The position numbers were made by a program, and so were the translations under genes. Positions 37,932 through 56,982 of a stretch of 64,000 nt of DNA are shown piece after piece (position 1 is the stretch's first letter; each line of letters opens with the position of its first letter). Below the pieces are notes generated by a model. It did not search any database and had not been told where the DNA came from. It saw only the letters and a list, made by a program, of their open reading frames with translations. The stretch is from Niameybacter massiliensis (GTDB lineage: Bacteria > Bacillota > Clostridia > Lachnospirales > Cellulosilyticaceae), in the NCBI RefSeq assembly GCF_001282685.1, contig NZ_LN875035.1:2528001-2592000 (forward strand), read 5' to 3'.

Positions 37932-38017
37932 GGCCCCTCCTTAAAAAGCTTTCATCTATATAGTGTAGCAAAAAACAAAAAGGTTGGAAAAAAATTTAAA
38001 AATATTTATATAAAGTA

Positions 38018-38048
38018 AAACCACCTTAAGAGTGACTTAAAGTGGTTT
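38018..38048 (-). terminator. Intrinsic terminator after the CE7 esterase gene
   Basis: A 13-bp stem (38018-38030 with 38036-38048), loop of 5. The single imperfect position becomes a G-U pair only on the leftward transcript, which shows its direction. Confidence 0.8.
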
Positions 38049-38078
38049 ATTTTGTATCTTTTATTTATTATATAAATC

Positions 38079-39041
38079 CTATAGTTCTATTACCTTCAAC
38101 ACTTTATTTAGATATTCTAGCTTGATTGTTGTATGTTTACGTCCGCCACCTTCATGTCCATTAAAGGGATATATATATACTTGCTTTTCTGATTTTATTC
38201 TATTATAAGTAGCAAAATATAATTCTGCAGGACATACAGAATCTTTAAGTCCTACTGAAGCCAGCACTCTACATCTAATTAAATCCGCCATATTCATAGT
38301 ATCAAAATAACTCAACGTCTCAAAAACTTTATCTATATACTCTGGATATTCTCTTAAATATTCTGCCACACACTTAAATGCTCCATTTTCATTTTCTACT
38401 CGTTTGTCAATATTACTATTACTCGGAACATCTGCCAGAGCAATTATAGGTCTAGGATCCAGGGCAGCTACTGCCATCACCAATCCTCCACCTTGACTTC
38501 CCCCTTCTATTATTATCCGATCCTCATCTACTTCAGGTTGATTGATCGCAAAATCAATAGCCTTTATACAGTCTATATAAAGTGCCCTTAAATAATATTC
38601 TTCTTTATTTAGTATCCCTTTGCATATTACAGATTGTGTATTTCCACTATTAATCTTGGCATGATTTCCAGTTGCACCTAGTTGTTCACGACAATCTATA
38701 GCTAATACAGCCATCCCAGACATTACCCAATGCATATACTCCCATGGTTCACCTGAACTATTTCCAAATCCATGATAATGTATAAGACAAGGGTATTTCT
38801 CCTTTTTCTTTTGGGGTACAATGAACCATCCATGTATATCCGTTGTATCAAATCCATTATATACAATTTTATAAACTGTAATATCCGGTATAGGATAATC
38901 CACCTTTTCTCTCCTTATATTAAGTGGACTATCTTTCGCATGCTCTAATGTCTGCTTCCAAAACATTTCAAAATCATCTTGTTTAGTAAGTGGTGGTACA
39001 TAATCATATAACTTTTTACTTATTTGTTCTATATAGCTCAT
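38079..39041 (-). CDS. CE7-family acetyl esterase (acetyl xylan esterase type)
   Basis: A 320-residue cytoplasmic esterase of the acetyl xylan esterase / cephalosporin-C deacetylase family, which removes acetyl groups from short oligosaccharides after uptake. Visible marks: HYHGFG near 88-93, the nucleophile motif GGSQGGG (S182) and the final GHEGGG carrying the catalytic histidine. The usual RGQ motif reads REQ here (R118-Q120), a change worth noting. It is the last gene of the leftward operon, 26 bp after a GH3 gene, and is followed by a terminator. The context suggests it trims acetylated glucooligosaccharides. Confidence 0.85.
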   Translation of the reverse strand: MSYIEQISKKLYDYVPPLTKQDDFEMFWKQTLEHAKDSPLNIRREKVDYPIPDITVYKIVYNGFDTTDIHGWFIVPQKKKEKYPCLIHYHGFGNSSGEPWEYMHWVMSGMAVLAIDCREQLGATGNHAKINSGNTQSVICKGILNKEEYYLRALYIDCIKAIDFAINQPEVDEDRIIIEGGSQGGGLVMAVAALDPRPIIALADVPSNSNIDKRVENENGAFKCVAEYLREYPEYIDKVFETLSYFDTMNMADLIRCRVLASVGLKDSVCPAELYFATYNRIKSEKQVYIYPFNGHEGGGRKHTTIKLEYLNKVLKVIEL

Positions 39042-39066
39042 CGTCTCTCTCCTTTATCCTTATCTA

Positions 39067-41214
39067 CTAACTTATATATTTTCTTACCATTTGAGTATCA
39101 GCTGAATTTTTGCCTATCATAATATCGAATTCACCTTCCTCAAAAACATACTCATAATCATATCTATAAAATTTCAACATTTCTTTTGTAATTTCAAATT
39201 CTACCCTTTGTTTTTCATAACCTTTTAATACAATTTGTCTAAACCCTTTAAGTTCTTTGATCGGCCTCACAACTGTAGCATAAACATCTCTAATATATAG
39301 CTGCACTGTCTCCTTTATTTCTACATTAGATTTGTTAATTACTATTACACTTGCTATCATTTTATTTTTTACAGTTTCTACTTTAAATTCTGTATATTCT
39401 GTTTCTCCATAGCTTAATCCATATCCAAAAGGATATAACGGTTCATTTGAGCAGTCCAAGTATCTTGATATATATCTCTCATCTTTCCCACTATAAGGTC
39501 TTCCTGTATTATAGCAATTATAATGAACAGGTATCTGTCCTACTGTCTGTGGAAAGCTCATAGCTAGCCTACCCGATGGGTTATATACTCCCGTTATAAC
39601 ATCTGCAAGTGCTCCACTTGATTCTGTACCCAAAAACCAAGCTTCAATTATTGCATCACATACAGGAACAATAGGCTTAATTTCTAGAGGTCTTCCACTA
39701 AAAATAATTGCAATTAAAGGCTTATTTAATTGCTTTAGCCTATAAATTAATTTTTCTTGATTATAGGATAATCTTATATTTGTTTTACTCGCTCCTTCTC
39801 CTGTATCTTGTGCATTTTCTCCTACTCCTACTATAATTACATCGCAATGCTCTAATTTCTTTATTTCTTCTTCTACCCAATCTTCTATATCAAAACACCC
39901 ATCTTGCATTGCTCCTAATCCTTTTGTTACTGATGTTATCACATCAAACCCTTTTTCTCTTATGGCTTCCTCTAGTGTAAAGGAATTTTTATCATCTCCT
40001 AGTACCCATCCTCCCATCGTACTATCTACAGCCACAAACGGACCAGCCATTCCAATACTCCCGTTTTCTTCTAATGGTAAGATTTGATTATTTTTTAATA
40101 GTACAATTGATTCCCTTGCAATTTCCCTCGCCCTTTTTAGATGTTCCTTACACTTATGTAACTTTTGCTCCTCTTTTGCATCTGCGTATCTATAAGGATT
40201 ATCAAATAACCCTAATTCCTCTTTTAGCATTAATATATTTCTTGTAGCTTGGTTAATTAAATCAATAGATAATCTACCTTCCTCTACTAACTTCTTTCCA
40301 TATTGAACGTAATGTGTAGACATCATCTCAATATCTATCCCCGCTTCAATACAAGCTTTTGCTGCTCCATATCCATCTTTCACTAATCCGTTAATAACGG
40401 TTTCATCAATAGCTCCATAATCAGATATCGTCACACCTTTAAATCCCCATTTATCCCTCAATATATCTCTAAACAAACTTTTATTAGCACTTGTTGGTAT
40501 ACCATCAATTACATTAAATGCAGTCATTACCATTTTTACTCCCGCATCCACTGCTGCCTTATATGATGGTAAATAGTACTGCCAAAGACTATGTTTTGAG
40601 AGCTCTACCCAATTGTAGTCACGTCCTCCCTGTGAAGCTCCATATCCAGCAAAGTGTTTTACACAAGCTGCTATTGTTCCTTTATCATTAAGACTGTCTC
40701 CTTGAAACCCCCTAACAGCCGCCTCTGTCATCATAGCATTCAAATAAGGGTCTTCACCTGGAGATTCCATAACACGCCCCCACCTTGGGTCTCTAACTAA
40801 GTCCGACATAGGTGCAAATGTAAGATGTATCCCTGATGCTGCACTTTCTTTTGCAACAATCTGAGTAGCATCATGATAGTTTTGCGGATTAAAGCTACAG
40901 CTTAATGCCAATGGTATAGGAAATACAGTTTTATAACCATAAATAACGTCTGCCATAAACAACATTGGTATCTTAAGCCTACTTTTCTCTAGATAATCAT
41001 CCTGTAACTTCTTCAACTTATCTGCACCAAAATAATTCAACGTACTTCCTAATCTACTTACTACTGAATTATCTATGCTTAGCGCTTCTAGAGGCCCTGT
41101 TATATCCACACCATCTTCTACTCCCCAAAAAAAGGGGGATAACTGGGTCATCTGCCCCAATTTTTCTTCAATCGTCATTTTAGTAATAAGTGCTTCTATT
41201 CTTTCACTGCTCAT
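39067..41214 (-). CDS. GH3 beta-glucosidase, second copy
   Basis: A 715-residue GH3 glycoside hydrolase with the (beta/alpha)8 domain, alpha/beta sandwich and C-terminal fibronectin-like domain. The nucleophile lies in VTISDYGAID (D265), and the substrate motif KHFAGYG is intact. The start at 41214 has AAGGGG at good spacing; a longer frame adds 12 residues without a site. No signal peptide, hence cytoplasmic. It shares the plan of the other GH3 gene upstream, from which it is separated by an intrinsic terminator (41260-41297), so it probably depends on read-through. It would cleave glucose from imported oligosaccharides; linkage not certain. Confidence 0.9.
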   Translation of the reverse strand: MSSERIEALITKMTIEEKLGQMTQLSPFFWGVEDGVDITGPLEALSIDNSVVSRLGSTLNYFGADKLKKLQDDYLEKSRLKIPMLFMADVIYGYKTVFPIPLALSCSFNPQNYHDATQIVAKESAASGIHLTFAPMSDLVRDPRWGRVMESPGEDPYLNAMMTEAAVRGFQGDSLNDKGTIAACVKHFAGYGASQGGRDYNWVELSKHSLWQYYLPSYKAAVDAGVKMVMTAFNVIDGIPTSANKSLFRDILRDKWGFKGVTISDYGAIDETVINGLVKDGYGAAKACIEAGIDIEMMSTHYVQYGKKLVEEGRLSIDLINQATRNILMLKEELGLFDNPYRYADAKEEQKLHKCKEHLKRAREIARESIVLLKNNQILPLEENGSIGMAGPFVAVDSTMGGWVLGDDKNSFTLEEAIREKGFDVITSVTKGLGAMQDGCFDIEDWVEEEIKKLEHCDVIIVGVGENAQDTGEGASKTNIRLSYNQEKLIYRLKQLNKPLIAIIFSGRPLEIKPIVPVCDAIIEAWFLGTESSGALADVITGVYNPSGRLAMSFPQTVGQIPVHYNCYNTGRPYSGKDERYISRYLDCSNEPLYPFGYGLSYGETEYTEFKVETVKNKMIASVIVINKSNVEIKETVQLYIRDVYATVVRPIKELKGFRQIVLKGYEKQRVEFEITKEMLKFYRYDYEYVFEEGEFDIMIGKNSADTQMVRKYIS

Positions 41215-41259
41215 AACACACCCCTTATCGATTACTCTATATGAGTACAATTTGATAAA

Positions 41260-41297
41260 AAGGAACCGAGATTGTATGATTTTGATCTCGATTCCTT
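41260..41297 (-). terminator. Intrinsic terminator between the two GH3 genes
   Basis: A 13-bp stem (41260-41272 with 41285-41297), loop of 12, U-run after it on the leftward transcript. The one imperfect position pairs G-U only on that strand. Downstream genes need read-through or a hidden promoter in only 45 bp. Confidence 0.82.
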
Positions 41298-41314
41298 AAA
41301 AGTTTGCAATATTC

Positions 41315-43465
41315 CTATTTAATTAATTCAAATGTTTTCTCTAATCCTTCTTGGCTATTAGGCCCTATTATTATACTAAATTTACCTGACTCTGAATCAA
41401 ATCCATTTTTTAAAGTATTGTATTTTAACATTTCTTCTGTAATATCAAATTCTACTCTAATTTCCTCATCCGGATTTAAGTATATTTGCTTAAATCCTTT
41501 AAGTTCTTTTACAGGTCTCACTGTACTTCCTACCCAGTCTCTTATATAAAGTTGTACAGTTTCTTTTCCTGCTACCTTCCCAACATTCTTTATTTTTACA
41601 CTTGCCTTTATGCATTCACCTTCAACTAGCTTTTCCTTATCTATATTCATCTCTTCATATGTATAATGAGTGTAACTTAACCCATATCCAAAAGAATACA
41701 ATGGTGCATTCGGACTATCTATGTACTCTGAGCAATACCCCATTCTACCCTCATCTTTTGGTTTAGGTCTTCCTGTATTGTAATGATTATAATATATTGG
41801 AGCTTGGCCTACTGTATATGGAAAGCTCATTGTCAATCTAGCTGATGGATTATAATCTCCATATAAGATATCCGCTAGTGCATTACCAGCTTCTGATCCT
41901 GGATACCATGCACTTAAAAGTGCATGAGAGTTTTCACTTACTTCCTTGATTTCTAGTGGTCTTCCACTAAACATAACTGTAACAACCGGTTTGCCTGCTT
42001 GTTTTACCAATTTAACTAAAGCTTCTTGAACGCCTGGCAACTTAATAACTGTTCGACTTCCAGCCTCACCAGCCATATCTTCTGATTCACCTACAGCAAG
42101 AATGATTACATCACTTTCATCTATAACCTTTAAAACTTCTTCTTCATTAATCGTATCGTCTATAACGTCGCAACCTTTAGCATATTGAACAGCACCTACT
42201 TTAGCTTTTATTCCCTCTAATACACTAACTGTAGCTTTTCTATCACCTTGCCAAGACCACGCCCCTAGCAATTCACCTGTATTTCCTAAAGGTCCTATAA
42301 TTCCTACTTTTTTATTTTTGCTCAATGGTAATACATCTTCATTTTTCAAAAGCACAATAGACTCCCTCGCTACTTCTCTAGCAACTTCTCTATGCTCATC
42401 AGAAAATAACAGCTTTGCTTCCTCTCCAACATTGGCCATTTTATACGGATTCTCAAATAATCCTAAATCTTCTTTTAACTTAAGAATTCTATAGACTGCA
42501 TCATTAACTTGTTGCTCATCTACTCTACCTTCTTGTATAAGTTCTTCTAGATAATGTACATAGTGACTTGTCATCATCTCCATATCAAGTGTAGCATGCA
42601 TAGCACTTTCAGCTGCTTGCTTACCATCTTCTGCAACACCATGTGTAATCAGTTCTCCCACTGCTGCCCAGTCAGAAATAATAACACCATCGAAGTTCCA
42701 TTCATCTCTTAAAATATCTTTTAATAAATACTTATTTCCTGTGCTTGGAACACCATGTACAGTATTAAAAGAAGTCATCACAAGTTTTGCACCTGCTTCA
42801 ACAGCAGCTTTATAAGAAGGTAAATAATACTCTCTCAATGTCCTATCTGATAAGTCTACTGTGTTATACTCACGTCCTGCTTCTGCTGCCCCATATGCAG
42901 CAAAGTGCTTCACACACGCACCAATATTATATGGATCATCAAAATTCCCTTGATAGCCTTCTACCATTGCTTTTGCCATACAACTATTTAAGTAAGCATC
43001 TTCACCAGTTGATTCTAACACTCTTCCCCATCTTGCATCACGTACTAAATCCACCATTGGAGCAAAGGTAACATGGATGCCTGAAACAGCTGCTTCTATT
43101 GCTGATACTCTTGCCATTTTATATGCCGCTTCTATATTCCATGTTGCCCCAATCGCCAGTGGAATAGGGAAAATCGTCTTATAGCCATGTATAATATCTG
43201 CCATAAATACCAAGGGAATCCCTAATCTATTATGCTCTAAATATTTTTTTTGAATCTCTATTGCATCTTTCGCATTACCTGTCCCTAATACAGAACCATT
43301 AATCCATAGATTTTCTTCTCCTATTCCTAACTCTTCCAAAGGACCTGTAATATCTCCCTGTGTATTAGACTTATATAAAAACGCAATTAATTGGCCTAAT
43401 TGTCCTATTTTTTCTTTTAAGGTCATTTGGTCTATTAAAGCATAAATATCCACTTTTTTATTCAT
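41315..43465 (-). CDS. GH3 beta-glucosidase, first copy
   Basis: A 716-residue GH3 enzyme with nucleophile in VIISDWAAVG (D265) and the KHFAAYGAAE motif intact. The C-terminal fibronectin-like domain ends near 700. The length and the gene neighbourhood match the sophorose-type GH3 found beside 1,2-beta-oligoglucan phosphorylase in Listeria innocua, although the linkage cannot be read from the sequence. Cytoplasmic (no signal peptide). It is the fifth gene of the leftward operon, 53 bp after the LacI regulator gene, and is followed by a terminator. Confidence 0.9.
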   Translation of the reverse strand: MNKKVDIYALIDQMTLKEKIGQLGQLIAFLYKSNTQGDITGPLEELGIGEENLWINGSVLGTGNAKDAIEIQKKYLEHNRLGIPLVFMADIIHGYKTIFPIPLAIGATWNIEAAYKMARVSAIEAAVSGIHVTFAPMVDLVRDARWGRVLESTGEDAYLNSCMAKAMVEGYQGNFDDPYNIGACVKHFAAYGAAEAGREYNTVDLSDRTLREYYLPSYKAAVEAGAKLVMTSFNTVHGVPSTGNKYLLKDILRDEWNFDGVIISDWAAVGELITHGVAEDGKQAAESAMHATLDMEMMTSHYVHYLEELIQEGRVDEQQVNDAVYRILKLKEDLGLFENPYKMANVGEEAKLLFSDEHREVAREVARESIVLLKNEDVLPLSKNKKVGIIGPLGNTGELLGAWSWQGDRKATVSVLEGIKAKVGAVQYAKGCDVIDDTINEEEVLKVIDESDVIILAVGESEDMAGEAGSRTVIKLPGVQEALVKLVKQAGKPVVTVMFSGRPLEIKEVSENSHALLSAWYPGSEAGNALADILYGDYNPSARLTMSFPYTVGQAPIYYNHYNTGRPKPKDEGRMGYCSEYIDSPNAPLYSFGYGLSYTHYTYEEMNIDKEKLVEGECIKASVKIKNVGKVAGKETVQLYIRDWVGSTVRPVKELKGFKQIYLNPDEEIRVEFDITEEMLKYNTLKNGFDSESGKFSIIIGPNSQEGLEKTFELIK

Positions 43466-43518
43466 AATGATCCTCCTTTCATTAAATCTATCTATTTTCT
43501 ATAAATTATTTTCTCATC

Positions 43519-44541
43519 TTAAATCGCTCTACATGAGCCCCTTTTCAAGAGTACTGCATCATAAACCAAATGCTTAGATTCTCCTCCTTGAATCATATCA
43601 AATAATGTTTCTATAGAAGAAAGAGCCATTTGGTCTGCTGGTTGATAAATTGTATCAATAGACGGATTATAGAACTCCGCTACGTCTATTCCATCAAATC
43701 CAACCACAGAAATATCATTTGGAACTGAAAGACCCATTGAAAAAATAGCTTTTGCTGCACCAACTGCAACGACATCTGCAAATGCGAATACAGCTGTCAT
43801 ATCCTTATTTCGCATTATAAGTTGTTTCATCATATTAAATCCATAATTATATCCAGATAATGTAGAATACTCTGATGCCACTAAATCTTCATCCAAAGGT
43901 ATATTATATTCTTGCAGTGCTTTAACATATCCATTATATCTTAATGAATTTGGCGTAATTATATCTAAGGGTTTGTTGTTAATAAATCCTATTCTTTTAT
44001 GTCCCAGTTTAATTAAATATTCTGTCGCCTTAAATGCTTCTTTTTCATCATCTATCGTAACACTTGAGTACATACCTAAATCTACCTCACTATTTGCAGC
44101 AATGGTTACTAAAACACAAGGTATACCAAGTCTTTCAAACTCTATCTTCGAATGATTAAAAGTTCCTCCCATAATAATTGCACCACATAAATTCCTGTCT
44201 TTCGCTTCTCTAATAGCAATTTCTAATTCATCTTCTATACCTGTAACATTCTGAATAATTAATTGATAACCTCTAAGTGCTATCTTTTCTTCTATTACAT
44301 GAATCATTTTTTGAAAAAATGGATTTTCAATACTTCTAACAAATAGTGCTATATTCTTTGAACTTCCACTCTTCAAATTACGTGCACTTGTATTGGGCAT
44401 ATAATTGTATTCTTTGATAACTTGCATTACACGTTGTTTGGTCTTATCACTTATTGATCCAGTATTATTCATAACACGGGATACTGTAGAAATACTTACC
44501 CCTGCCTTTTCTGCTATTGTTTTAATTGTTATTTCTTCCAT
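43519..44541 (-). CDS. LacI-family regulator of the glucooligosaccharide locus
   Basis: A 340-residue LacI protein: helix-turn-helix at 1-50 (IKTIAEKAGVSISTVSRVMNN) and a sugar-binding regulatory domain. The hinge helix and typical FVRSIENPFF segment follow. It is the only LacI gene in this locus and the divergent promoter region holds two GAAAACGTTTTC palindromes, the standard form of a LacI-family site, so it is the obvious candidate to bind them. The start codon has only a weak ribosome site (GTAGGA). It lies downstream of the binding-protein gene behind a hairpin without U-tract. Confidence 0.88.
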   Translation of the reverse strand: MEEITIKTIAEKAGVSISTVSRVMNNTGSISDKTKQRVMQVIKEYNYMPNTSARNLKSGSSKNIALFVRSIENPFFQKMIHVIEEKIALRGYQLIIQNVTGIEDELEIAIREAKDRNLCGAIIMGGTFNHSKIEFERLGIPCVLVTIAANSEVDLGMYSSVTIDDEKEAFKATEYLIKLGHKRIGFINNKPLDIITPNSLRYNGYVKALQEYNIPLDEDLVASEYSTLSGYNYGFNMMKQLIMRNKDMTAVFAFADVVAVGAAKAIFSMGLSVPNDISVVGFDGIDVAEFYNPSIDTIYQPADQMALSSIETLFDMIQGGESKHLVYDAVLLKRGSCRAI

Positions 44542-44573
44542 AATATTGTTCCTACTTCTATTATTTTATTCTT

Positions 44574-44620
44574 TAGAAAGTGAATCTAAAGAAATATACT
44601 TCTTTTAGATTCACTTTCTA
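44574..44620 (-). other. Intercistronic hairpin between binding-protein and LacI genes
   Basis: A perfect 17-bp stem (44574-44590 with 44604-44620), loop of 13. There is no U-tract on the leftward transcript, so it probably stabilises the upstream message and limits expression of LacI and GH3. Confidence 0.6.
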
Positions 44621-44624
44621 ATTT

Positions 44625-46208
44625 TTATTTACTAAATTCAGCTAACTGTGATTTTACCTCTTCAATAACTGTATCAACTCCTGCTTTTTGAAGTTGATTT
44701 CTATATTCTGCAACTGCTTCTTTCGGATCCATAGTTGTCTTTCCTAATAGAATTTGTATACCTAACTGAGCATTTACATTAGAAATAGCTGCTAATTCTG
44801 TAGTTACTTTGCTATTATCAAAATTAAATCCTACATATGGATTATCAATAGCATTTTTATTCCACTCTTCATTTAGTTCATAGCGTCTTGGGTCTTCTGA
44901 TGCATATGGAATATTAAATTTATCACTACGTAATGACCAAACTGAGAACCCTCCTCCATCAACAGCAGAATCAAATGTTGCAGGCTTTTCTACTACTCCA
45001 TCTATAACTTCATATTGTCTACCTTCAATACCATATTGGATTAAATTATAGTATGATTCATCTGTCATAAACTTCTCTATCGCCATTAATGCTCTCTCTG
45101 GATTTTTAGAAGTCATACTAATAACAGTTGAATTTTCTACACCCATCTTTCTCTTAATTTTTCCACCTTTTTCAGCAAAACACCAGAAATCTGATTCAAT
45201 ACCAGGTAGTTTTTCTTTCATTGCACCATATTGACCCGTCCAGTCTGCCATATGAGTAATATAAGCAGCAGATAAACCATTCATAAAGTTATCTTTTGCA
45301 GATTGTTGAGATGACAATACATCCTTTGTCCAATATCCTTTATCAGCCCACTCTCTCATACGTACTGCAAAATCTTCAAATTCATCTGTGAATGCTGGAT
45401 GAAATACTTCTTGGTATTCTTCAGCACTTTTAGCCACTAATCCCATTTCAGAAGTCGGAATACCTGGTGCTTCACAAATCCATGTACCTGTAGTATCAAT
45501 CAATAATTTATATAAATCCATCGCTAAAGAGGAGTTTCCATTTAGAGGTACAAACTCCCCCTCTACAAGTGCTTTGTCCAAATATTCTTCCATTGTTTCA
45601 ATAGAGTTAACCACCTCTATACCATACTTCTCTCTTAAATCACGTCTTGTTACAAAACCAGCCGGAGTAAACTCACTATATAAACTAGGTACACCATAAA
45701 TTCTACCATTAACTTTACTCGTTTCCCAAACACTATCTGGAATTTCTGCCTTTAATTTTGGAGCTGCTATCTCTAACATATCTGTAATATCAACAATCGC
45801 TCCTTGAGTTGCTAATGTTCCGTATGGTATAGCACTTCCTGTTGAAGCATGTGACATATCAAAATTTTCACCTGATGCAAATAATAATGGATATTTAGTA
45901 GATGTATCGCCCCAGTCTATGTATTTAACTTCAATAGTTGCATTAATATCTTCTTTTAACTTTTTATTAATTTCTGATAAAATATCTTTATTTGCAACAC
46001 CTTCACTTCCCCATAAATAGTACACTAATTTTACTTCTTTAGAAGTATCTACTCCTTGAGCTACTGATTGATTACCTGATCCACTCCCTGTTGATGTTGA
46101 TCCAGCATTTGAGGTTTTTACTTGTTCAGTTTTTCCACATCCTGTCATTACCCCAACTGTACATGTGATAACTAATGCCATTGAAAAAAACTTTTTAAAC
46201 TTTTTCAT
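44625..46208 (-). CDS. Oligosaccharide-binding lipoprotein (LplA-type family 1)
   Basis: A 527-residue extracytoplasmic lipoprotein: signal peptide with lipobox TGC (cysteine near 24), a serine/glycine-rich linker to about 50, then a family 1 solute-binding domain. The partner permeases are LplB/LplC-like and no ATPase gene is in the locus, so a shared MsmX-type ATPase elsewhere is expected. It is likely to bind glucooligosaccharides, given the adjacent GH3/GH94/GH35 genes (inference). Start after TGGAGG. Confidence 0.9.
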   Translation of the reverse strand: MKKFKKFFSMALVITCTVGVMTGCGKTEQVKTSNAGSTSTGSGSGNQSVAQGVDTSKEVKLVYYLWGSEGVANKDILSEINKKLKEDINATIEVKYIDWGDTSTKYPLLFASGENFDMSHASTGSAIPYGTLATQGAIVDITDMLEIAAPKLKAEIPDSVWETSKVNGRIYGVPSLYSEFTPAGFVTRRDLREKYGIEVVNSIETMEEYLDKALVEGEFVPLNGNSSLAMDLYKLLIDTTGTWICEAPGIPTSEMGLVAKSAEEYQEVFHPAFTDEFEDFAVRMREWADKGYWTKDVLSSQQSAKDNFMNGLSAAYITHMADWTGQYGAMKEKLPGIESDFWCFAEKGGKIKRKMGVENSTVISMTSKNPERALMAIEKFMTDESYYNLIQYGIEGRQYEVIDGVVEKPATFDSAVDGGGFSVWSLRSDKFNIPYASEDPRRYELNEEWNKNAIDNPYVGFNFDNSKVTTELAAISNVNAQLGIQILLGKTTMDPKEAVAEYRNQLQKAGVDTVIEEVKSQLAEFSK

Positions 46209-46256
46209 GATATTACCTCCATTTTATTAGTGTTTTTATTTAAATATAAAAAATAT

Positions 46257-47153
46257 CTACTCTTTTACAGCACCTATTGTTAATCCCGTTATAAAATACT
46301 TTTGTATAAAGGGATAAAGTAAAATAATTGGTCCTATAGAGACTACGGCTGTCGCCATCTTAATTGACTCTGATGGCAATTCTGACGTATTAATAACCGC
46401 TCCTTGTTGCACTAACATTTGTACATTAGCTTGATTTACTACCTTTTGAAGGAAAAATTGAAGTGGAAATTTATCTTGAGATTGTATATATAACATCGCA
46501 TTATACCATTCATTCCAAAATCCTAATGCTAAGAATAACCCTACTGTTGCTAATGACGGTATAGAAAGTGGCATAAATATCTGCCAATAAATTCTAAAAT
46601 CTCCAGCTCCGTCAATAGCAGCTGATTCATATAATGAATCAGGTATTGCCTTCATAAAGTTTCTCATTAAAAAGATAGACCACGGACTCATTATCCCAGG
46701 TAAAATCATTGCCCATACACTATCTTTTAGATTTAGTACAGATACCATCAATATATAGCTTGCAACCAGTCCACCACTAAATAGTGTTGTAAAATATATA
46801 AAAAATGAAATTTGATTTCTGTATTTAAAATCTTTTCTACTTAAAACATATCCTGCCATAGACATGCAAAATAGTTCTAAAACAGTTCCGACTACTGTTA
46901 TAAAAATTGTTATGCCATATGCATCTACTAGTTTTTTTGCATTTTGAAACAAGAAAGTATAGGCACTAAAATCAAGCTCTTTAGGAATGAGTTTAAAACC
47001 TTCTGTAATAATCTCTTTTTCATTCATAAATGATGAAATAACCATTAATACAAATGGGAATAAACAGATTAAAGCAAATACCGTTATTACTATATAAGAA
47101 ATAATTTTAATTACTAATCCATCTGTATTTTTTTGTTTTAATATCGTATTCAC
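46257..47153 (-). CDS. Sugar ABC permease, MalG/LplC type
   Basis: A 298-residue permease with six membrane helices and the EAA-type cytoplasmic loop ESAAIDGAGDFRIYWQIFMPLSIP. It forms the membrane channel with the LplB-like permease encoded just upstream (18 bp between the genes) and serves the binding protein encoded 48 bp downstream. The ATPase is missing from the locus. Start codon preceded by a GGGAGGAG-type site. Confidence 0.9.
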   Translation of the reverse strand: MNTILKQKNTDGLVIKIISYIVITVFALICLFPFVLMVISSFMNEKEIITEGFKLIPKELDFSAYTFLFQNAKKLVDAYGITIFITVVGTVLELFCMSMAGYVLSRKDFKYRNQISFFIYFTTLFSGGLVASYILMVSVLNLKDSVWAMILPGIMSPWSIFLMRNFMKAIPDSLYESAAIDGAGDFRIYWQIFMPLSIPSLATVGLFLALGFWNEWYNAMLYIQSQDKFPLQFFLQKVVNQANVQMLVQQGAVINTSELPSESIKMATAVVSIGPIILLYPFIQKYFITGLTIGAVKE

Positions 47154-47171
47154 ATGCTCTCCTCCCTCTTA

Positions 47172-48107
47172 TTAAAATAATGCACAATCTGGTTCTATTT
47201 TTTTAACAATAAAGTTTATGACTAATACAAATATTAAGCCAAATATAGATTGATAAAATCCTACTGCTGCTCCTAATGAGAAGTTAAACTGTCCAACCAA
47301 GCTTCTAAAAACATATGTATCAATAATATCTGTTTGAGGGAAGAGAACTGAGTTATTCCCTATTAAGTTATAGAATAAATCAAAAGAACCTTTTAAAATA
47401 CCACCTAGACCAAATAAGAATAGCAATATGAATGTTGGCTTTAATAATGGGAGCGTGATGTATCTAATACGTTGCCACACACTTGACCCATCTAAATAGG
47501 CTGCTTCATATATTTCCGAACTAATTCCTGTAATTGCAGCTAAATATACTATCATCCCATATCCTGTTCCAGACCAAATCTTAAAGGCTACAATAATGTA
47601 TTTCCATATACCTTGATCTGAATAGAATTCATGACTCTCAAGGCCCAAAGAATTTAATATAGAATTGACGAATCCATAATTGTAATTGAATAGATTGTAT
47701 GCAAAAAATCCTACAATAACCATTGATATAAAATGAGGTAATAGAATTACAGATTGTGAAATTTTCTTAAACCACTTGCTGCTTACCTCAGAAATCATAA
47801 TTGCAAATGTTATTTGAAAGATATTACCTAAACCTAAAAATGCCAAATTATAAAGTAATGTATTTTTTGTAATATTCCACAAATCTCCATTCTTAATTAA
47901 AAATTCAAAATTTCTTAATCCAATAAATTCACTGCCAAAAATCCCTTTATTAATATTGTAGTCAACAAATGCTACATATGCACCAGGCATAGGTAAGTAA
48001 CAAAATACTATAAAGAAAATAATTGTTGGTAAAAGCATTAAAAATAATATCTTATTCTTTTTTAACTCTTTGCCAAAATTCTTAAACCGTAAAGTTATCG
48101 CCGCCAT
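47172..48107 (-). CDS. Sugar ABC permease, LplB type
   Basis: A 311-residue permease with six helices and the EAA loop EAAYLDGSSVWQRIRYITLP. It is the first gene of the leftward operon and starts 3' of a promoter at 48228-48255 and an operator at 48143-48159. Ribosome site GGGAGGAAGG just before the ATG. Confidence 0.9.
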   Translation of the reverse strand: MAAITLRFKNFGKELKKNKILFLMLLPTIIFFIVFCYLPMPGAYVAFVDYNINKGIFGSEFIGLRNFEFLIKNGDLWNITKNTLLYNLAFLGLGNIFQITFAIMISEVSSKWFKKISQSVILLPHFISMVIVGFFAYNLFNYNYGFVNSILNSLGLESHEFYSDQGIWKYIIVAFKIWSGTGYGMIVYLAAITGISSEIYEAAYLDGSSVWQRIRYITLPLLKPTFILLFLFGLGGILKGSFDLFYNLIGNNSVLFPQTDIIDTYVFRSLVGQFNFSLGAAVGFYQSIFGLIFVLVINFIVKKIEPDCALF

Positions 48108-48142
48108 GTACCTTCCTCCCTTAAATTCTTTGGCCTTTGCTT

Positions 48143-48159
48143 AGGAAAACGTTTTCTTT
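48143..48159. promoter_or_regulatory. Operator, copy 1 (LacI-type palindrome)
   Basis: AGGAAAACGTTTTCTTT, containing the perfect 12-bp palindrome GAAAACGTTTTC (48145-48156). It lies about 65 bp downstream of the leftward transcription start, a roadblock position. Confidence 0.8.
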
Positions 48160-48227
48160 CTCTTTTCCTATGCAATTTGCACATTATTTCTTAATTTTAT
48201 TTTATTGTTATGTAACTTATGTCTCTA

Positions 48228-48255
48228 ATTATATATTTATTTTACAAATTGTCAA
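48228..48255 (-). promoter_or_regulatory. Promoter of the leftward transporter operon
   Basis: On the minus strand TTGACA (48255-48250), a 16-bp spacer and TATAAT (48233-48228): both hexamers match consensus perfectly. Confidence 0.82.
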
Positions 48256-48304
48256 TAAAAATAAATATATTTTATAAAAATAAAATGATTCAAATAACAT
48301 TTTC

Positions 48305-48333
48305 TTGACTTTACTTCTACTAACATCTAAAAT
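48305..48333 (+). promoter_or_regulatory. Promoter of the GH35-GH94 operon
   Basis: TTGACT (48305-48310), exact 17-bp spacer, TAAAAT (48328-48333). Predicted start near 48340, about 20 bp before operator copy 2. Confidence 0.75.
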
Positions 48334-48355
48334 TAATTTATATTTTTCATATTTT

Positions 48356-48372
48356 AAAGAAAACGTTTTCCT
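48356..48372. promoter_or_regulatory. Operator, copy 2 (inverted identical copy)
   Basis: AAAGAAAACGTTTTCCT is the exact reverse complement of copy 1 over 17 bp; its palindrome is at 48359-48370, 214 bp from the other centre. Together with copy 1 it brackets both promoters. Confidence 0.8.
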
Positions 48373-48420
48373 ATTAATTTCCTTATTGTTTCATTATTAA
48401 AAGAAAGGAGCTTTAATTTT

Positions 48421-50781
48421 ATGGTTAGCTTTGAAAAACAACAAATTTTCATTGATGGTCAACCTATTTTTCTATTATCTGGAGAATTACATTATTTCCG
48501 ACAACCTAGAGAAAATTGGCAACATTTGATAGATGAAGCTAAATCAATGGGCTTAAATTGTATTGCATCATATGTCCCTTGGATTCTTCATGAAGAATCT
48601 GAAAATCATTATAATTTCATTGATAATTTAGACCTCGCCGCTTTTATTGATCTATGTAAGGAAAATAATCTTTACTTTTTTGTTCGCCCAGGCCCTTTTG
48701 TTATGGCAGAAATTAAAAATGAAGGACTCCCTTATTGGATAGCTCAAAAGTATCCAGATGCCCTTCCTACCTCTTTTGATCATATTAATAAACCTTCAAC
48801 TACCCTAGATTATTTGCATCCTGGTTATTTAAAAGAATGTGCAAAATGGTATAAAAAAATCATGTCCATTATACAGCCACGCCTACATTGTAACGGTGGA
48901 AACATTATTGGCCTGCAACTTGATAACGAAGTTGGTATGCTCAATTGGGTAACAAATACACCTCTTTTAAATGATCACGTACTTGAAAGATTTATCTACT
49001 ATTTAAAGTCTACTTATACACCAGAACACTTTACTAATCGCTATGGCTTTACATTGGAAGCTATCAATTATAATATCCTTCGTTCTCCACATGAACATTA
49101 TAGTGTTGCTTTTCATTTTGATTTCGGAAAATTTATGCGTCATTATTATGCAGAATACATACTTATACTTAAGAGATATGCTTTAGATAACGGCATTAAG
49201 GGTATACCTTTCTTCATCAATATCCATGGAACAGGTGAAGGCCGCATCTTTGATTTCCCTTTAGGTATTAGCCAACTTTATGAAGCTTATAACTCAGATG
49301 AAGGTATGATTAGTGGGACGGACGTCTATTTAGGTGAACCAACAGAAGGAACTTATCAAGACCTCTATGTTATTAACGCTCTTACTTCCTGTATGAACAA
49401 AAAAGGAAATCCATTAACCTCTATTGAATTTGAGTGTAGCGATGGTCCTTATTGTTCTTTAAGTGGTAGACGTTATCATCCTAGTGCTACTTCACACAAA
49501 ATGCTTATGTGCCTATCTCAAAATGCACGTATGCTCAGCTTTTATGTTTTTAGTGGCGGTGAAAATTACTTATTGGCTCATCCTCATAATGATGCCAATG
49601 GTCGTATGGCCTTTACTGGTGAAAAACATGGTTATAATGCACCTATCCAACCTGACGGTTCTCACAACTTCTCTTTTTCTCATATTGCATCTACTGCTCA
49701 GAGCATTCATACATTAAATCATTTAATTGCTACGTCATATCAGGTTACCGACCCAGTATCTTTAGCCTTTATACCTGATTACTTCTTAACTGAGTTACAA
49801 TATAATCACTCAGAAAGTATCTCTAAGATTCATAGTAACTTGAAAAGGTTCCGCTGTTCACCAAGTATAGATCATATTGGGCGCGCTTTACTAGATCACC
49901 ATGTCGCATTTGATGCAGTTGATATTCAACATGAAGATATTCCTACAAGCAAAGCACTCGTCCTATTATCTGCACGCTATATGAACACACAAATTCAAAC
50001 TAAACTTATTGAATATATTTCATCTGGAGGCAACCTTTTATTATATGGAGAACTACCTGAATTTGATCTCGAAGGCAATCCTTGCGACCTTCTTATCAAG
50101 GCACTTAATCTCCCCTCACCTACTTATCAGAAAGATAATCCTCCAACTACATTTCTTACTGCAAGTAGTTCCTCTAATCATCCAGATTTACGCATAACCT
50201 CCGCTCAGTGCTTTCCTAATGACGGCACAGAAATTATTACTCTTTATGGTACTGACCAGATGTGTGGCATGATTAAAACACTTGGTAACGGAAAAATATG
50301 CGCTATTACATGTGATTATCCAAATGATTTAGCATTCTTCAAAATGGTTTTCAAAGAACTTTCTATTACTGCTTCTATAGAAGTAGATTACTATAGACAA
50401 GGTATTTATATTTCACGCACGCGCTCTCAAGATAACCAAGAACTTCTTTATATTCTTAATCTAGATGCTGAAGAAAAATCTATAGATATTCATGTTAATA
50501 AAAAATTAATTTTTGAAAACTTTTATCTCAAAGAAAAGGCATGCTATATACTTCCATTAAAAGTTAAAATCAATGATATGGAAATTATTAATACTACATC
50601 TGAACTTATTAACATTTCTCCAAACACTATTACTTTACGTCCAACACAAAAAACTCATTCCATTATTCTTCGAGGTACACGTACTGTACTTCCAGACCCT
50701 AGCTACCAAATATCTATTAAAGGAGAATACACAATTATAACTACTTTACATTCTCAAACAATTACTATTAAAATACTTTAA
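48421..50781 (+). CDS. GH35-family glycosidase (beta-galactosidase or glucosyl-transferring relative)
   Basis: A 786-residue GH35 protein. The barrel begins with FLLSGELHYFR and has YVPWILHE, RPGPFVMAEIKNEGLP (about 95-110), the acid/base in LQLDNEVG (E170) and the probable nucleophile in SIEFECSDG (E336). The C-terminal half is beta-rich. No signal peptide, so cytoplasmic. Canonical acid/base motif is QIENEYG; here LDNEVG, and the nucleophile context is also unusual, which fits a divergent subgroup. Some GH35 members act on beta-1,2-glucosidic links rather than galactosides, and the partner genes suggest that here (inference). First gene of the rightward operon, 15 bp before the GH94 gene. 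Confidence 0.82.
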   Translation: MVSFEKQQIFIDGQPIFLLSGELHYFRQPRENWQHLIDEAKSMGLNCIASYVPWILHEESENHYNFIDNLDLAAFIDLCKENNLYFFVRPGPFVMAEIKNEGLPYWIAQKYPDALPTSFDHINKPSTTLDYLHPGYLKECAKWYKKIMSIIQPRLHCNGGNIIGLQLDNEVGMLNWVTNTPLLNDHVLERFIYYLKSTYTPEHFTNRYGFTLEAINYNILRSPHEHYSVAFHFDFGKFMRHYYAEYILILKRYALDNGIKGIPFFINIHGTGEGRIFDFPLGISQLYEAYNSDEGMISGTDVYLGEPTEGTYQDLYVINALTSCMNKKGNPLTSIEFECSDGPYCSLSGRRYHPSATSHKMLMCLSQNARMLSFYVFSGGENYLLAHPHNDANGRMAFTGEKHGYNAPIQPDGSHNFSFSHIASTAQSIHTLNHLIATSYQVTDPVSLAFIPDYFLTELQYNHSESISKIHSNLKRFRCSPSIDHIGRALLDHHVAFDAVDIQHEDIPTSKALVLLSARYMNTQIQTKLIEYISSGGNLLLYGELPEFDLEGNPCDLLIKALNLPSPTYQKDNPPTTFLTASSSSNHPDLRITSAQCFPNDGTEIITLYGTDQMCGMIKTLGNGKICAITCDYPNDLAFFKMVFKELSITASIEVDYYRQGIYISRTRSQDNQELLYILNLDAEEKSIDIHVNKKLIFENFYLKEKACYILPLKVKINDMEIINTTSELINISPNTITLRPTQKTHSIILRGTRTVLPDPSYQISIKGEYTIITTLHSQTITIKIL

Positions 50782-50796
50782 AGAAAGGGCAATACT

Positions 50797-53700
50797 ATGA
50801 AAACACTTAATACTTTTTTTGAATTCAGCGCTCAAAATACTCTTTATCGTTTTCTTCCAACAGGCGATATTTTTTCCTTCACTTCTCACAATATCATGTT
50901 AAATCAATTTCGTGGGAATCCATTAGACGGCTCTATTAATAATATTTATCTACGCATTTATAACTCAGATAAAATCGAATTTTATCCTTTGCTAGGAATC
51001 AAATCACATAGTACATTATCAAAAGGAGAAAATACCTTAGTTTATCAAGGAACTATCGATTCAATTCGTTATATCTTAACCTTTTACGGAACAGATGAAC
51101 TATGGTTTTGGGATATTGCCCTTACCGGCACTGGCCAAACTGTAGATTTAGTATACGGCCAAGATATTGCTATTGCTTCTGCTGGGGCTGTTTTGACCAA
51201 CGAACTTTATGTTTCTCAATATATTGATCACAAAATCTTCAATTCAAATCATGGATATATTGTATGTTCGCGTCAAAACCAACCTCAAGGTACTACATTC
51301 CCTTATCTTCAGCAGGGTAGCCTTGGTATTAAAACAACTCACTATTCTACAGATGGTATGCAATTCTTCGGTCTTTCTTATAAATCTACACAGACTCCAA
51401 GTGCATTAACTGGCAATTTACAAGACTTTAACTATCAATATGAGTTTGCCTATACCGCTTTGCAGACAGAAAAATTTCAGCTAGACCACCCTAGGACATT
51501 TGCCTTTTATGGCTTATTTAAAGAAAATCACCCTACACCTATTGAAACACTAGAATTCACTGACTATATTGAGACTACATATCATACTATTAAACAGCCT
51601 GAAGCAATCAATACCTGTCCATCTATAGTACTTAAACCTTGCTTTAGCACCCCCTATGTCTCTCCTAAGTTTTCTGAGAAAGAAATTTTCAATCTTTTCC
51701 CTGATCACAAATTAGAAGAATACAAAAATGAACAACTACTTTCTTTTTTCACTAGCGAAGCTTCACATATCGTAACTCAAGACAAAGAACTTATAAGTGA
51801 ACGCCCTCATGGCACCATTATTACAACTCAGATTGATTTACATCGTATTAATAACGAATTAATTACATCAACTAATTATATGTATGGGCAATTTAATGGC
51901 CAGACAGTTGTAGGCAATACCTCTTTCCACAAATTCTTGTCTACTCCTCGCGGACTGCTTAACATTCAAAAAACTTGTGGACAACATATATATATCAAAC
52001 TTGATGAAAATTACCATTTACTGACCTTACCTGCTCTTTACGAAATGGGTATGAATTATTCTAAATGGTTCTATATATTACCAAATGACTTACTTATCAT
52101 CACTTCATTTGCCGCTGCTGATGAAGCTGATATTGTATTAGAAGTACATTCGCAAAAGGGTAAAAACTACGACTTCATCATAACTAATCAATTAGTTTTA
52201 GGAGAAAACGAATTTACCCACGATATTACCTACTCTACAATTACTAACGGACTCCGTTTTGAATTAAACTCTAATACCTACTCAGGTATCCATTATGACT
52301 TACAGCTCTCAACATCAGATTTTGAGATAAGTGATGATCGTATTTTCTTCACAAATGACTGCACTTATAACGGCACTTTACTAACCATAACGACCAAAAA
52401 TCAAAGTCATTTTCAATGTATTATTAGAGGAAGATTAAACAGCGCATTACCTCTTCCTATCCCAAACTATACATTTAATGAAGAAGCTTCTAAATATCAG
52501 CTATTTTTCCAACATTTAATGGGCGGGTTCAAACTAGAAAGTACTTCTTCTCATTACTCAAAACAACTTGATATTTTGAATACTACACTTTGGTGGTATA
52601 GCCATAATGCACTTGTTCACTTTGCTGTTCCTCACGGACTGGAGCAACCTGGAGGTGCAGCATGGGGGACTCGAGATATCTGCCAAGGACCTCTAGAATA
52701 TTTCCTTGCAACTCAGCATTTTGATCTAGTTAAAGAGATTCTATTTAATATCTTTTCACACCAAGACTGCTGTACAGGAGAATGGCCACAATGGTTTATG
52801 TTTGATCGCTATCCTTATAATGCAGGCGAATGCCATGGAGACGTAGTTTTCTGGCCTTTAAAAGCTGTTACTGATTATATTCATCAAACCGGTGACCTAG
52901 AAATTCTAAATCAAGTTCTTCCATATGCTAATGATGCAGATATACCAGAGACTCTATTCAAACATATTCAGCACGCTGTTACTGCTATTCAATCTCGTTT
53001 TATTGATGATACAGGACTTATTACTTATGCCGGTGGAGATTGGGATGATACACTTCAACCTGTCAATGACACACTAAAAAAACAACTAGTAAGTTCTTGG
53101 ACTGTAGCATTAGGTTATCAAACCTTATCACATCTAAGCACCGTCATTAGCAAAGTAGATCTAGAGTATGCTCACCTAGTTAAAGCAAGTGCTGATAAAA
53201 TTCACTATGCCTTTAATCATTTGCTCATCAAAGACAATGTTATCTCTGGTTTTGTTCGCTGCAACAACGGCTATCAATATATGCTTCATCCATCTGATGA
53301 CACTACCGGCATCCACTATAGATTGCTCCCTATGACTCGCAGTATTATCGCAGAGTTAGTCTCTCCCGAGCAAGCAGAGCATAATTATAATGTGATTGAA
53401 GAAAACTTAAAATGTCCAGATGGTATCCGTTTAATGGACCATCCTGCTGCATATGCAGGAGGCGTGAGCAAACTCTTTAAACGCGCAGAACAAGCTTCTA
53501 ACGTAGGTCGCGAAATTAGTCTTCAATATACTCATGCACACATTAGATATATAGAAGCTATGGCCAAGCTCGGTAAGTGCAATGATGCTTGGGATGGACT
53601 CTTTACTATTAACCCTATACTCATTCAAGAAAGTGTACCTAATGCTTGTATTAGACAAAGCAATTTATACTTTAGTAGTTCAGAAGGTGCCTACAACGAC

Positions 53701-54096
53701 CGTTATGAATATGCAAAATCCTTCAATAAATTAAAGGAGGGCTCTATTGATGTTAAAGGAGGTTGGAGGCTATACTCTAGCGGCCCAGGAATCTATATTA
53801 ATCAGCTTATTACAAATCTCTTAGGCATCAAGTCTTGTCCTGAAGGTCTGATAATTGACCCTGTCCTTCCTTCATCTCTAGATGGTTTAAAATGCTCTTT
53901 TAGATGTAAAGGTTATGACTTCACCTTCTATTATCACTTTACTTCAACTAACCATCTCTACATCACCGATGGTTCTAAAAAATTAACCACTATCAGTATA
54001 GAAAACATCTATCGACCTAGCGGTGTAATGCTTAGCAATAATACGCTCTCTGATTGTGATAATATATTGCATATCTTTATCCCTCTTAATGCTTAA
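50797..54096 (+). CDS. GH94-family phosphorylase, probably 1,2-beta-oligoglucan phosphorylase type
   Basis: A 1099-residue GH94 enzyme that splits a beta-glucoside with phosphate to give alpha-glucose-1-phosphate. The N-terminal half is beta-sandwich; the (alpha/alpha)6 barrel carries GAAWGTRDICQGP, with D627 in the place of the catalytic acid, and GEWPQWF and YAGGDWDDT, where most GH94 have DWND. The C-terminal GGWRLYSSGPGIYINQL and EGLIIDPVLPSSLDGLK segments and the length (about 1100, versus about 810 for cellobiose phosphorylase) point to the oligoglucan phosphorylase subgroup. Cytoplasmic. Last gene of its operon, followed by a bidirectional terminator. Confidence 0.82.
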   Translation: MKTLNTFFEFSAQNTLYRFLPTGDIFSFTSHNIMLNQFRGNPLDGSINNIYLRIYNSDKIEFYPLLGIKSHSTLSKGENTLVYQGTIDSIRYILTFYGTDELWFWDIALTGTGQTVDLVYGQDIAIASAGAVLTNELYVSQYIDHKIFNSNHGYIVCSRQNQPQGTTFPYLQQGSLGIKTTHYSTDGMQFFGLSYKSTQTPSALTGNLQDFNYQYEFAYTALQTEKFQLDHPRTFAFYGLFKENHPTPIETLEFTDYIETTYHTIKQPEAINTCPSIVLKPCFSTPYVSPKFSEKEIFNLFPDHKLEEYKNEQLLSFFTSEASHIVTQDKELISERPHGTIITTQIDLHRINNELITSTNYMYGQFNGQTVVGNTSFHKFLSTPRGLLNIQKTCGQHIYIKLDENYHLLTLPALYEMGMNYSKWFYILPNDLLIITSFAAADEADIVLEVHSQKGKNYDFIITNQLVLGENEFTHDITYSTITNGLRFELNSNTYSGIHYDLQLSTSDFEISDDRIFFTNDCTYNGTLLTITTKNQSHFQCIIRGRLNSALPLPIPNYTFNEEASKYQLFFQHLMGGFKLESTSSHYSKQLDILNTTLWWYSHNALVHFAVPHGLEQPGGAAWGTRDICQGPLEYFLATQHFDLVKEILFNIFSHQDCCTGEWPQWFMFDRYPYNAGECHGDVVFWPLKAVTDYIHQTGDLEILNQVLPYANDADIPETLFKHIQHAVTAIQSRFIDDTGLITYAGGDWDDTLQPVNDTLKKQLVSSWTVALGYQTLSHLSTVISKVDLEYAHLVKASADKIHYAFNHLLIKDNVISGFVRCNNGYQYMLHPSDDTTGIHYRLLPMTRSIIAELVSPEQAEHNYNVIEENLKCPDGIRLMDHPAAYAGGVSKLFKRAEQASNVGREISLQYTHAHIRYIEAMAKLGKCNDAWDGLFTINPILIQESVPNACIRQSNLYFSSSEGAYNDRYEYAKSFNKLKEGSIDVKGGWRLYSSGPGIYINQLITNLLGIKSCPEGLIIDPVLPSSLDGLKCSFRCKGYDFTFYYHFTSTNHLYITDGSKKLTTISIENIYRPSGVMLSNNTLSDCDNILHIFIPLNA

Positions 54097-54104
54097 ACAA
54101 ATAC

Positions 54105-54140
54105 AAAATGCCACCTTCATCTTACTGAAAGTGGCATTTT
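54105..54140. terminator. Bidirectional terminator between the GH94 and discoidin-like genes
   Basis: A 10-bp outer stem (54105-54114 with 54131-54140) plus an inner 4-bp stem around a 6-base loop; T-rich on both sides. It lies in the 54-bp gap between convergent genes. Confidence 0.85.
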
Positions 54141-54150
54141 ATATATTCTT

Positions 54151-54939: not shown

Positions 54940-54963
54940 TTTTATCCTCCCTCTATATAACAA

Positions 54964-55070
54964 GAACTATTACACCCTTTCTTTCATCCTCTAATCTCTT
55001 TAGATAAGATTTTCTAAAATTTAGTGTTCATAAAAATACATTCTAAATTTTATTTGTGGTGTAATAGTTC
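54964..55070 (-). other. Structured leader: long inverted repeat with inner hairpin
   Basis: A perfect 13-bp outer stem (54964-54976 with 55058-55070) encloses an inner 9-bp stem (55016-55024 with 55043-55051). It ends about 10 bp before the ribosome site of the discoidin-like gene. It could be a cis-regulatory RNA, a processed spacer or a small palindromic repeat element. Confidence 0.5.
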
Positions 55071-56979: not shown

Positions 56980-56982
56980 ATA

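Follow-up and report, generated by a model that had tools for sequence, protein, structure and literature searches.

Does the gene cluster at positions 38079-54096 of a 64,000-nucleotide stretch of the Niameybacter massiliensis genome (contig NZ_LN875035.1, positions 2,528,001 to 2,592,000; hereafter the window) encode a pathway for beta-1,2-gluco-oligosaccharides, and if so, is it the one known from Listeria? A sequence-only reading had seen there the parts of Listeria-type clusters: a 1,2-beta-oligoglucan phosphorylase, a glycoside hydrolase of family 3 (GH3) that acts on sophorose, and an ATP-binding cassette (ABC) importer with a binding protein; in the Listeria innocua lin1839-lin1841 cluster these are LiSOGP, Lin1840 and, for the binding protein, Lin1841. 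It had suggested that the cluster could be a fuller, partly undescribed pathway. Judging from the sequence, the cluster is a genuine, coherent locus for beta-1,2-gluco-oligosaccharides and not of the standard Listeria type. All nine open reading frames proposed for it are in place and match the expected Pfam families, and the enzymes hold up: the GH94 protein has the domains and residues of an oligoglucan phosphorylase, both GH3 proteins are Lin1840-like by best PDB match and by residues, and the GH35 protein has as its nearest solved relative, by sequence and by Z-score, the beta-1,2-glucosyltransferase IaSGT. The importer and the regulator, on the other hand, are of another kind.

On the strength of gene content, protein families, conserved residues, a shared operator and recurrence in other genomes, we read the locus as a LacI-controlled uptake and degradation system for beta-1,2-gluco-oligosaccharides that is probably (about 85%) a second type beside that of Listeria. 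It is perhaps a system for acylated oligosaccharides, given its esterase of carbohydrate esterase family 7 (CE7).

Gene content and layout

The locus consists of two units that diverge from a 313-bp gap, a minus-strand unit of seven genes spaced by 18-100 bp and a plus-strand unit of GH35 and SOGP genes spaced by 15 bp. Compared with lin1839-lin1841, it has a distant binding protein, another LacI, an additional GH35, a second GH3 and CE7. That overlapping sets of these genes recur in other genomes argues that the clustering is not due to chance. The features are as follows.

38018-38048, minus strand: terminator-like hairpin 3' of the CE7 gene, a 13-pair stem followed by TACTTTATAT (consensus match only)
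38079-39041, minus strand: CE7/AXE1 acetyl esterase, 320 amino acids (aa) (Pfam AXE1, 272.7 bits)
39067-41214, minus strand: GH3A, a probable beta-glucosidase of the type-B clade defined below
41315-43465, minus strand: GH3B, a probable beta-glucosidase closest to the sophorose-hydrolysing Lin1840
43519-44541, minus strand: LacI-family regulator (Pfam LacI and Peripla_BP_3)
44625-46208, minus strand: lipoprotein solute-binding protein, DUF3502/NgtS-like, type B (PF12010 and SBP_bac_8)
46257-47153, minus strand: ABC permease, MalG side (BPD_transp_1)
47172-48107, minus strand: ABC permease, MalF side (BPD_transp_1)
48145-48156: operator-like palindrome GAAAACGTTTTC on the importer side, exact match
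48228-48255, minus strand: sigma-A promoter-like TTGACA-16-TATAAT for the importer/GH3/CE7 unit (12/12 matches, consensus only)
48305-48333, plus strand: sigma-A promoter-like TTGACT-17-TAAAAT for the GH35-SOGP unit (10/12 matches, consensus only)
48359-48370: operator-like palindrome GAAAACGTTTTC, exact match, 25 bp downstream of the -10 box
48421-50781, plus strand: GH35 of a side clade of IaSGT-like proteins, 786 aa (by sequence, structure model and tree)
50797-54096, plus strand: SOGP (GH94), 1099 aa (by Pfam domains and LpSOGP match)
54101-54144: terminator-like 19-pair hairpin between SOGP and a converging gene at 54151 (reported on the minus strand, consensus only)

Between 48050 and 48480, which covers the gap and its edges, there are 5 promoter-like sites where 2.3 are expected, and two of these face outward to the units. 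Over 37800-55200 neither promoter-like sites (65, with 83.2 expected) nor terminator-like hairpins (6, with 7.4 expected) exceed chance.

The importer

The solute-binding protein has only four PDB matches at E-values up to 0.001, namely 5swa (NgtS), 5suo, 5mlt and 7x0i (CpbB), and Lin1841 is absent among them. Its best solved relative is 5swa (E = 3.1e-25), from the NgtS importer (SP_0092) of Streptococcus pneumoniae, which binds N-glycan fragments (PMC5215778). The similarity is low, so no shared ligand is implied. As a stand-in for the Listeria-type system in comparing importers, LacI proteins and clades, we used L052, a cluster with SOGP whose binding protein matches Lin1841 with 392 bits. 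The window's binding protein is 29% identical to that of L052 over 237 aa (E = 9e-6), whereas those of three other loci (L035, L036 and L047) are 49-51% identical to it. The LacI proteins of the window and of L052 share 30% identity. At these two points the window does not hold the same parts as Listeria, and we conclude from the sequence comparisons that the importer is not of the Lin1841 type and that its binding protein has no more than a distant kinship with that type.

The binding protein of the IaSGT cluster in Ignavibacterium album is described as a homologue of that of L. innocua (PMC8861115). The Streptomyces griseus cluster SGR_2422-2427 resembles the window in having an importer for beta-1,2-oligosaccharides and a gene annotated as an acetyl-esterase, and differs from it in its GH1 and GH193 enzymes, its Lin1841-like binding protein and its esterase, which lies outside the CE families (PMC12369401). 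In the literature we found, which was mostly open-access, the Lin1841 type is the only importer described for beta-1,2-glucan fragments, and we found no report there of a DUF3502 binding protein on this subject.

Two binding proteins beside SOGP and GH3 genes elsewhere (L048 11925-13523 and L049 11987-13642) closely resemble neither Lin1841-type proteins nor that of the window, and may represent further importer types.

The phosphorylase and the GH3 pair

The GH94 protein carries the Pfam domains SOGP_N (307.2 bits), SOGP_2nd (299.6), GH94 (61.8) and SOGP_4th (36.7), and matches the Lachnoclostridium phytofermentans enzyme LpSOGP along its entire length with 1181.7 bits. All 14 named residues of LpSOGP (PMC5309861) are identical in it, after correcting for the numbering of the PDB sequence, which runs one ahead of that of the paper; thus no difference was seen among the residues checked. 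As far as sequence can say, this protein is a SOGP. Such enzymes require at least three beta-1,2-linked glucoses (PMC5309861) and do not phosphorolyse sophorose. In a tree, the SOGP of the window falls into one clade with those of L008, L027, L053, L070 and L071 (support 97/96); four of these six genes stand beside an importer like that of the window, L070 has the operator described below, and L071 has neither in the tests made. Two more GH94 genes were noted in the same genome (C11:1210770-1212053 and C9:41820-43037), one a strong match (531.9 bits) and the other scoring 112 bits in a 903-aa frame.

Lin1840 is the best PDB match of both GH3 proteins, with 627.6 bits for GH3A and 723.2 bits for GH3B. 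We compared nine Lin1840 residues named in PMC4757417 by eye in printed alignments. The six at subsite -1 (D91, R149, K191, H192, D270 and E473, of which D270 and E473 are catalytic) are kept in both, and with W271, R572 and Y583, all at subsite +1, the count is 9/9 in GH3B and 8/9 in GH3A. The difference is W271, which is Tyr in GH3A and likewise in JMB19063 (PMC4757417). The reading frame of GH3A is listed to 41250 from a TTG; the ATG at 41214 is most likely the start, since the alignment pairs residue 1 of Lin1840 with query residue 13 and this ATG is preceded by AAGGGG. In a tree of 12 GH3 sequences, GH3A groups with those of L009, L053 and L060 (100/100). GH3B joins the L035 and L036 sequences (96/98), whose loci have Lin1841-type binding proteins. 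Because the two fall into separate clades, the operon contains two GH3 lineages rather than a recent duplication. Both the SOGP and GH3A of the window belong to other clades than those of L052.

The GH35 protein

IaSGT is the best PDB match of the GH35 by sequence (167 bits), although identity is just 21-24%. An AlphaFold2 model built from 11 homologues (mean predicted local distance difference test score, pLDDT, 84.6) aligns to IaSGT with Z = 41.5 over 673 residues at a root-mean-square deviation of 3.1, compared with Z = 33.8-36.2 over 714-738 residues for GlmA-type structures and 33.7 for the best galactanase or galactosidase. Foldseek also ranks IaSGT first by E-value. The IaSGT residues Y52, E102, N175, E176, N275, E343 and Y378, at subsite -1 or catalytic (roles from PMC8861115), are invariant in all 11 aligned homologues, and N275 is present in none of three BgaC-like sequences. 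We considered and ruled out a GlmA-like exo-beta-glucosaminidase, on account of Asn169, which aligns with Asn175 of IaSGT; in TkGlmA, Asp178 is regarded as the residue behind specificity for the amino group (PMC8861115). We saw no signal peptide in the protein by eye.

The acceptor side is different. In a tree, the window's GH35 belongs to a seven-member clade (98/100) without IaSGT, whose partner is the L034 protein (100/100), and is separate from the three BgaC-like sequences, although that split has support of just 72/77. Arg349, the key +1 recognition residue of IaSGT, is absent throughout the seven-member clade, which has Ser, Cys or Asn instead. It is present in L034 and IaSGT only; L030, L032 and L033 have an Arg one column earlier, which the window clade also lacks. 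The authors of the IaSGT study note that Arg349 varies among homologues (PMC8861115). In the window clade, aglycone-pocket residues also differ from those of IaSGT; Trp279 is replaced by Thr, Tyr397 by Gly and Val179-Phe180 by Met-Leu, and the loops after the nucleophile and after Tyr378 are longer than in IaSGT. With its -1 residues kept and these positions and loops changed, the GH35 probably binds glucose at -1 in the manner of IaSGT and has its own acceptor site. That site is not readable from the model, because segments 96-102, 272-274 and 341-350 have pLDDT below 50. Nor can the reaction be read from sequence, since a Bacteroides GH35 encoded beside a GH144 turned out to be a beta-1,2-galactosidase with no activity towards beta-1,2-gluco-oligosaccharides (PMC11739564).

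The LacI regulator and its operator

The gap between the two units holds two exact copies of the palindrome GAAAACGTTTTC, one downstream of each divergent promoter-like site. Allowing one mismatch, the window has 3 matches where 0.12 are expected. Genome-wide there are 3 sites of this type compared with 2 in a reversed-pattern control, and it is only the pairing of two in one 313-bp gap that is remarkable. The third match in the genome falls within a gene for an iron-sulphur protein (L064 7462-8487), and we discounted it as a member of the regulon.

The LacI protein is 50-63% identical to those of six further loci (50% for that of L049), and 30% identical to that of L030. In the other loci the site reads TGGAAACGTTTCCA or nearly so. 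With up to two mismatches this pattern has no match in the window, and it also finds 6 matches in reversed sequences, in 4 of 13 loci. For both reasons we adopted the relaxed core pattern G[AG]AAACGTTT[CT]C, allowing a single mismatch. Of nine promoter regions tested, six contain it twice, a number reached in 0 of 1000 shuffles. The remaining three, namely those of L009 and L053 and the permease promoter of L027, contain it once each, and there 4-11 of 1000 shuffles reached one. It was found neither in L030 nor in the region before the L052 binding protein gene. In Candidatus Heritagella gallinarum (class Clostridia), SOGP lies on a different contig from the GH35-GH3 locus, L009; two core sites in the 500 bp before this SOGP (L070) tie it to the regulon.

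Recurrence in other genomes

Close relatives of the binding protein were found in 3 of 398 genomes in a sample of the phylum and in 3 of 311 in a sample of the class, the window's own genome being included in both. All four loci outside that genome also hold SOGP, GH35 or a Lin1840-like GH3: L053 has SOGP and GH3, L060 has GH3, L027 has GH35 and SOGP, and L030 has a 30%-identical GH35 and GH3. Two more loci with this importer were found through GH35 and are not independent, L008 in a Spirochaetia genome (GH35 and SOGP) and L009 (GH35 and GH3). Together, these six loci come from Clostridia, other Bacillota and one Spirochaetia genome, and in five the LacI and operator resemble those of the window. 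From the sequence comparisons, the importer and its regulator and operator largely occur together with this SOGP and GH3A, as what we call "type B", a name coined in this analysis. One genome, G657, has a Lin1841-type cluster (L052) and a type-B locus (L053) together.

We collected ten relatives of the GH35 besides that of the window, from one contig scan (two loci) and samples of 391 and 398 genomes at E-values up to 1e-50, and annotated their neighbours in part. SOGP adjoins GH35 in L008 and L027 and lies elsewhere in the genomes of L009 (G387), L029 (G409) and L031 (G704). Five of the six other members of the seven-member GH35 clade have SOGP in the locus or genome. As background, counting the window's own genome, SOGP is present in 7 of 398 genomes of the phylum sample and in 4 of 59 relatives. 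No SOGP was found in G148 or G061, and none of the SOGP matches in a phylum sample of the same size, presumably the same sample, comes from G463, G590 or G616.

The GH35 loci L031, L033 and L034 also encode proteins with the PF10091 domain, which we take to be of GH144 type. In the mostly open-access literature we found no paper that gives both names, and PMC12102758 does not name PF10091. In L028 (11484-12764, minus strand) a 426-aa protein beside GH35 has no Pfam or NCBIfam match and is 27% identical over 289 aa to the PF10091 protein of L033 (E = 2e-18), so it is possibly a divergent beta-1,2-glucanase. Sites of sequence TCGAAACGTTTCGA flank both genes, and are identical to one site in L052 and one in L036. 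We also noted that the two annotated neighbours in L032 are another GH94 and a GH2, that L034 has such a GH94 too, and that the GH35 relatives of L029 and L031 share DUF5696 and NHL/Yip1-domain proteins as neighbours.

The esterase and possible substituents

The CE7 gene is the last of the importer operon, after GH3A. Its product has GGSQGG at residue 180 and HEG at residue 296, and RGQ is not kept (REQ at residue 118); we take GxSQG, HE and RGQ to be the CE7 motifs. By eye, no signal peptide was seen. Other families that may act on substituents stand beside some relatives. Metallophosphoesterases that are 73% identical to each other adjoin the type-B GH3 gene in two loci of one genus (L053 14374-15324 and L060 2638-3684) and could remove phosphate-linked substituents, and a sulfatase-family gene lies 59 bp upstream of SOGP in L071 (10623-12098, minus strand). 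Beta-1,2-glucans are described as having roles in symbiosis, pathogenesis and osmoregulation. The periplasmic glucans of Dickeya, of 4-12 glucoses, bear O-acetyl groups (PMC4726272), and periplasmic glucans may also bear succinyl and methylmalonyl groups (PMC9558356). Together with the gene annotated as an acetyl-esterase in the Streptomyces cluster (PMC12369401), these reports render the import of substituted oligosaccharides plausible, and the CE7 gene, the neighbouring families and the acetylation in Dickeya together lead us to the hypothesis that the substrates are substituted glucans of bacterial neighbours. We found no report, in the mostly open-access literature, of an oligoglucan phosphorylase together with an acetyl esterase.

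Proposed pathway

We infer a substrate, an inducer and a set of enzyme roles as follows. The lipoprotein binding protein and two permeases would import the chains, presumably using a shared ATPase encoded elsewhere. CE7 would take off O-acyl groups in the cytoplasm, SOGP would phosphorolyse chains of at least three glucoses to glucose 1-phosphate and sophorose, and the two GH3 enzymes would cleave the sophorose. LacI would sit at the two palindromes and keep both divergent units repressed until it binds an oligosaccharide or sophorose. The GH35 would move or remove beta-1,2-linked glucose with an acceptor site unlike that of IaSGT. It may clear beta-1,2-glucose from chain ends that SOGP cannot handle, or it may disproportionate sophorose so that SOGP can finish the chain.

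In the second case, GH35 and SOGP would form a phosphate-saving pair by analogy with MalQ and MalP (2 Sop2 giving Sop3 and glucose), a proposal that we regard as doubtful. IaSGT disfavours sophorose or glucose as an acceptor, whereas the remodelled site of the window's GH35, with no Arg349 or Trp279 and two longer loops, would admit either. Disproportionation is favoured by L008 and L027, which have GH35 and SOGP and no GH3 in the stretches read (21 kb and 18 kb; GH3 was not searched for in the whole genomes), and the two GH3 enzymes of the window lessen the need for it. It is as if GH35 and GH3 were alternative answers to sophorose, the former in L008 and L027 and the latter in L053 and L060.

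Evidence against this reading and alternative explanations

Several observations weigh against our reading. A PF10091 glucanase was not found in the window's own genome, in which GH162, GH186 and GH192-194 were not searched for, and Lin1840 cleaves laminaribiose as well (PMC4757417). For the GH35 model, the query-normalised TM-score from Foldseek is 0.77-0.82 for GlmA-type structures and 0.76-0.78 for IaSGT. Six of the seven IaSGT residues are also kept in all three BgaC-like sequences, and therefore only N275 tells the groups apart. The operator core pattern was chosen after the sites had been seen, and 4 of the 14 positions in the window's two sites deviate from the consensus found elsewhere. 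The operator also resembles CcpA-type cre sites. LacI and operator are not tied to the type-B importer alone, since in L049 a LacI that is 50% identical to the window's, together with two sites, accompanies a dissimilar importer. No relative of CE7 occurs in any of 25 compared loci, so the esterase may be a passenger. Genes of the substituent-removing kind are not special to type B either, because a phosphodiester glycosidase (L048 3696-4760) is among ten neighbours that were annotated across seven other loci with SOGP.

The lack of CE7 relatives in the compared loci would fit the alternative that this is an ordinary sophoro-oligosaccharide locus in which CE7 and GH35 are passengers for other glycans, sharing nothing more than the operon. 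GH3B and SOGP alone would suffice, as GH3 and SOGP do in Listeria (PMC4757417), and GH35 is absent from what was read of L053 and L060. However, the binding protein is not Lin1841-like, and the GH35 gene lies 15 bp from SOGP, adjoins SOGP in two other loci and shares the promoter-operator layout, and we consider this explanation unlikely.

The locus might instead mainly import sophorosides, plant or yeast glycosides with a beta-1,2-diglucose, some of them acetylated, rather than bacterial glucans. IaSGT takes many aryl and alkyl glucosides as acceptors (PMC8861115), natural sophoro-oligosaccharides are reportedly known mainly as sophorosides (PMC12369401), and CE7 would be a fitting enzyme for acetylated glycosides. 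SOGP, however, with its requirement for longer chains, would be superfluous for a disaccharide glycoside, and we regard sophorosides as the main substrate as quite improbable.

That the GH35 is a beta-galactosidase and the locus handles a mixed, galactosylated glucan is very improbable, for although most characterised GH35 enzymes are beta-galactosidases, six of the seven residues do not discriminate and the Bacteroides enzyme shows what a GH35 beside a GH144 can be, the authors of that study place their enzyme far from the SGT group (PMC11739564), and best match, Z-score and N275 all link the window's protein to IaSGT.

Neighbouring genes

Next to the locus, positions 36312-37931 (minus strand) encode a 539-aa protein with N-terminal sigma-70 regions of the extracytoplasmic function type, weak helix-turn-helix matches at about residues 211-241 and no Pfam match in the rest. 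On the other side, 55128-59936 holds a short-chain dehydrogenase, KduI, an AraC regulator and DUF2264, perhaps a uronate or pectin cluster. Further away, 15001-20985 (minus strand) encodes a protein of 1994 aa that combines S-layer homology domains with cadherin-like ones.

Conclusions

What is new in this locus is an importer-regulator type with a traceable operator and a clade of GH35 proteins. Present in Clostridia, other Bacillota and one Spirochaetia genome, and often beside a GH35 with an altered acceptor site, this second importer-regulator type would mark a candidate gene set for the use of decorated beta-1,2-glucans. On the more doubtful reading in which GH35 and SOGP act as a pair like MalQ and MalP, beta-1,2-glucan catabolism would have a second branch for decorated glucans, with an importer and a regulon of its own, and the pair may possibly offer a new ATP-saving route in oligosaccharide catabolism.

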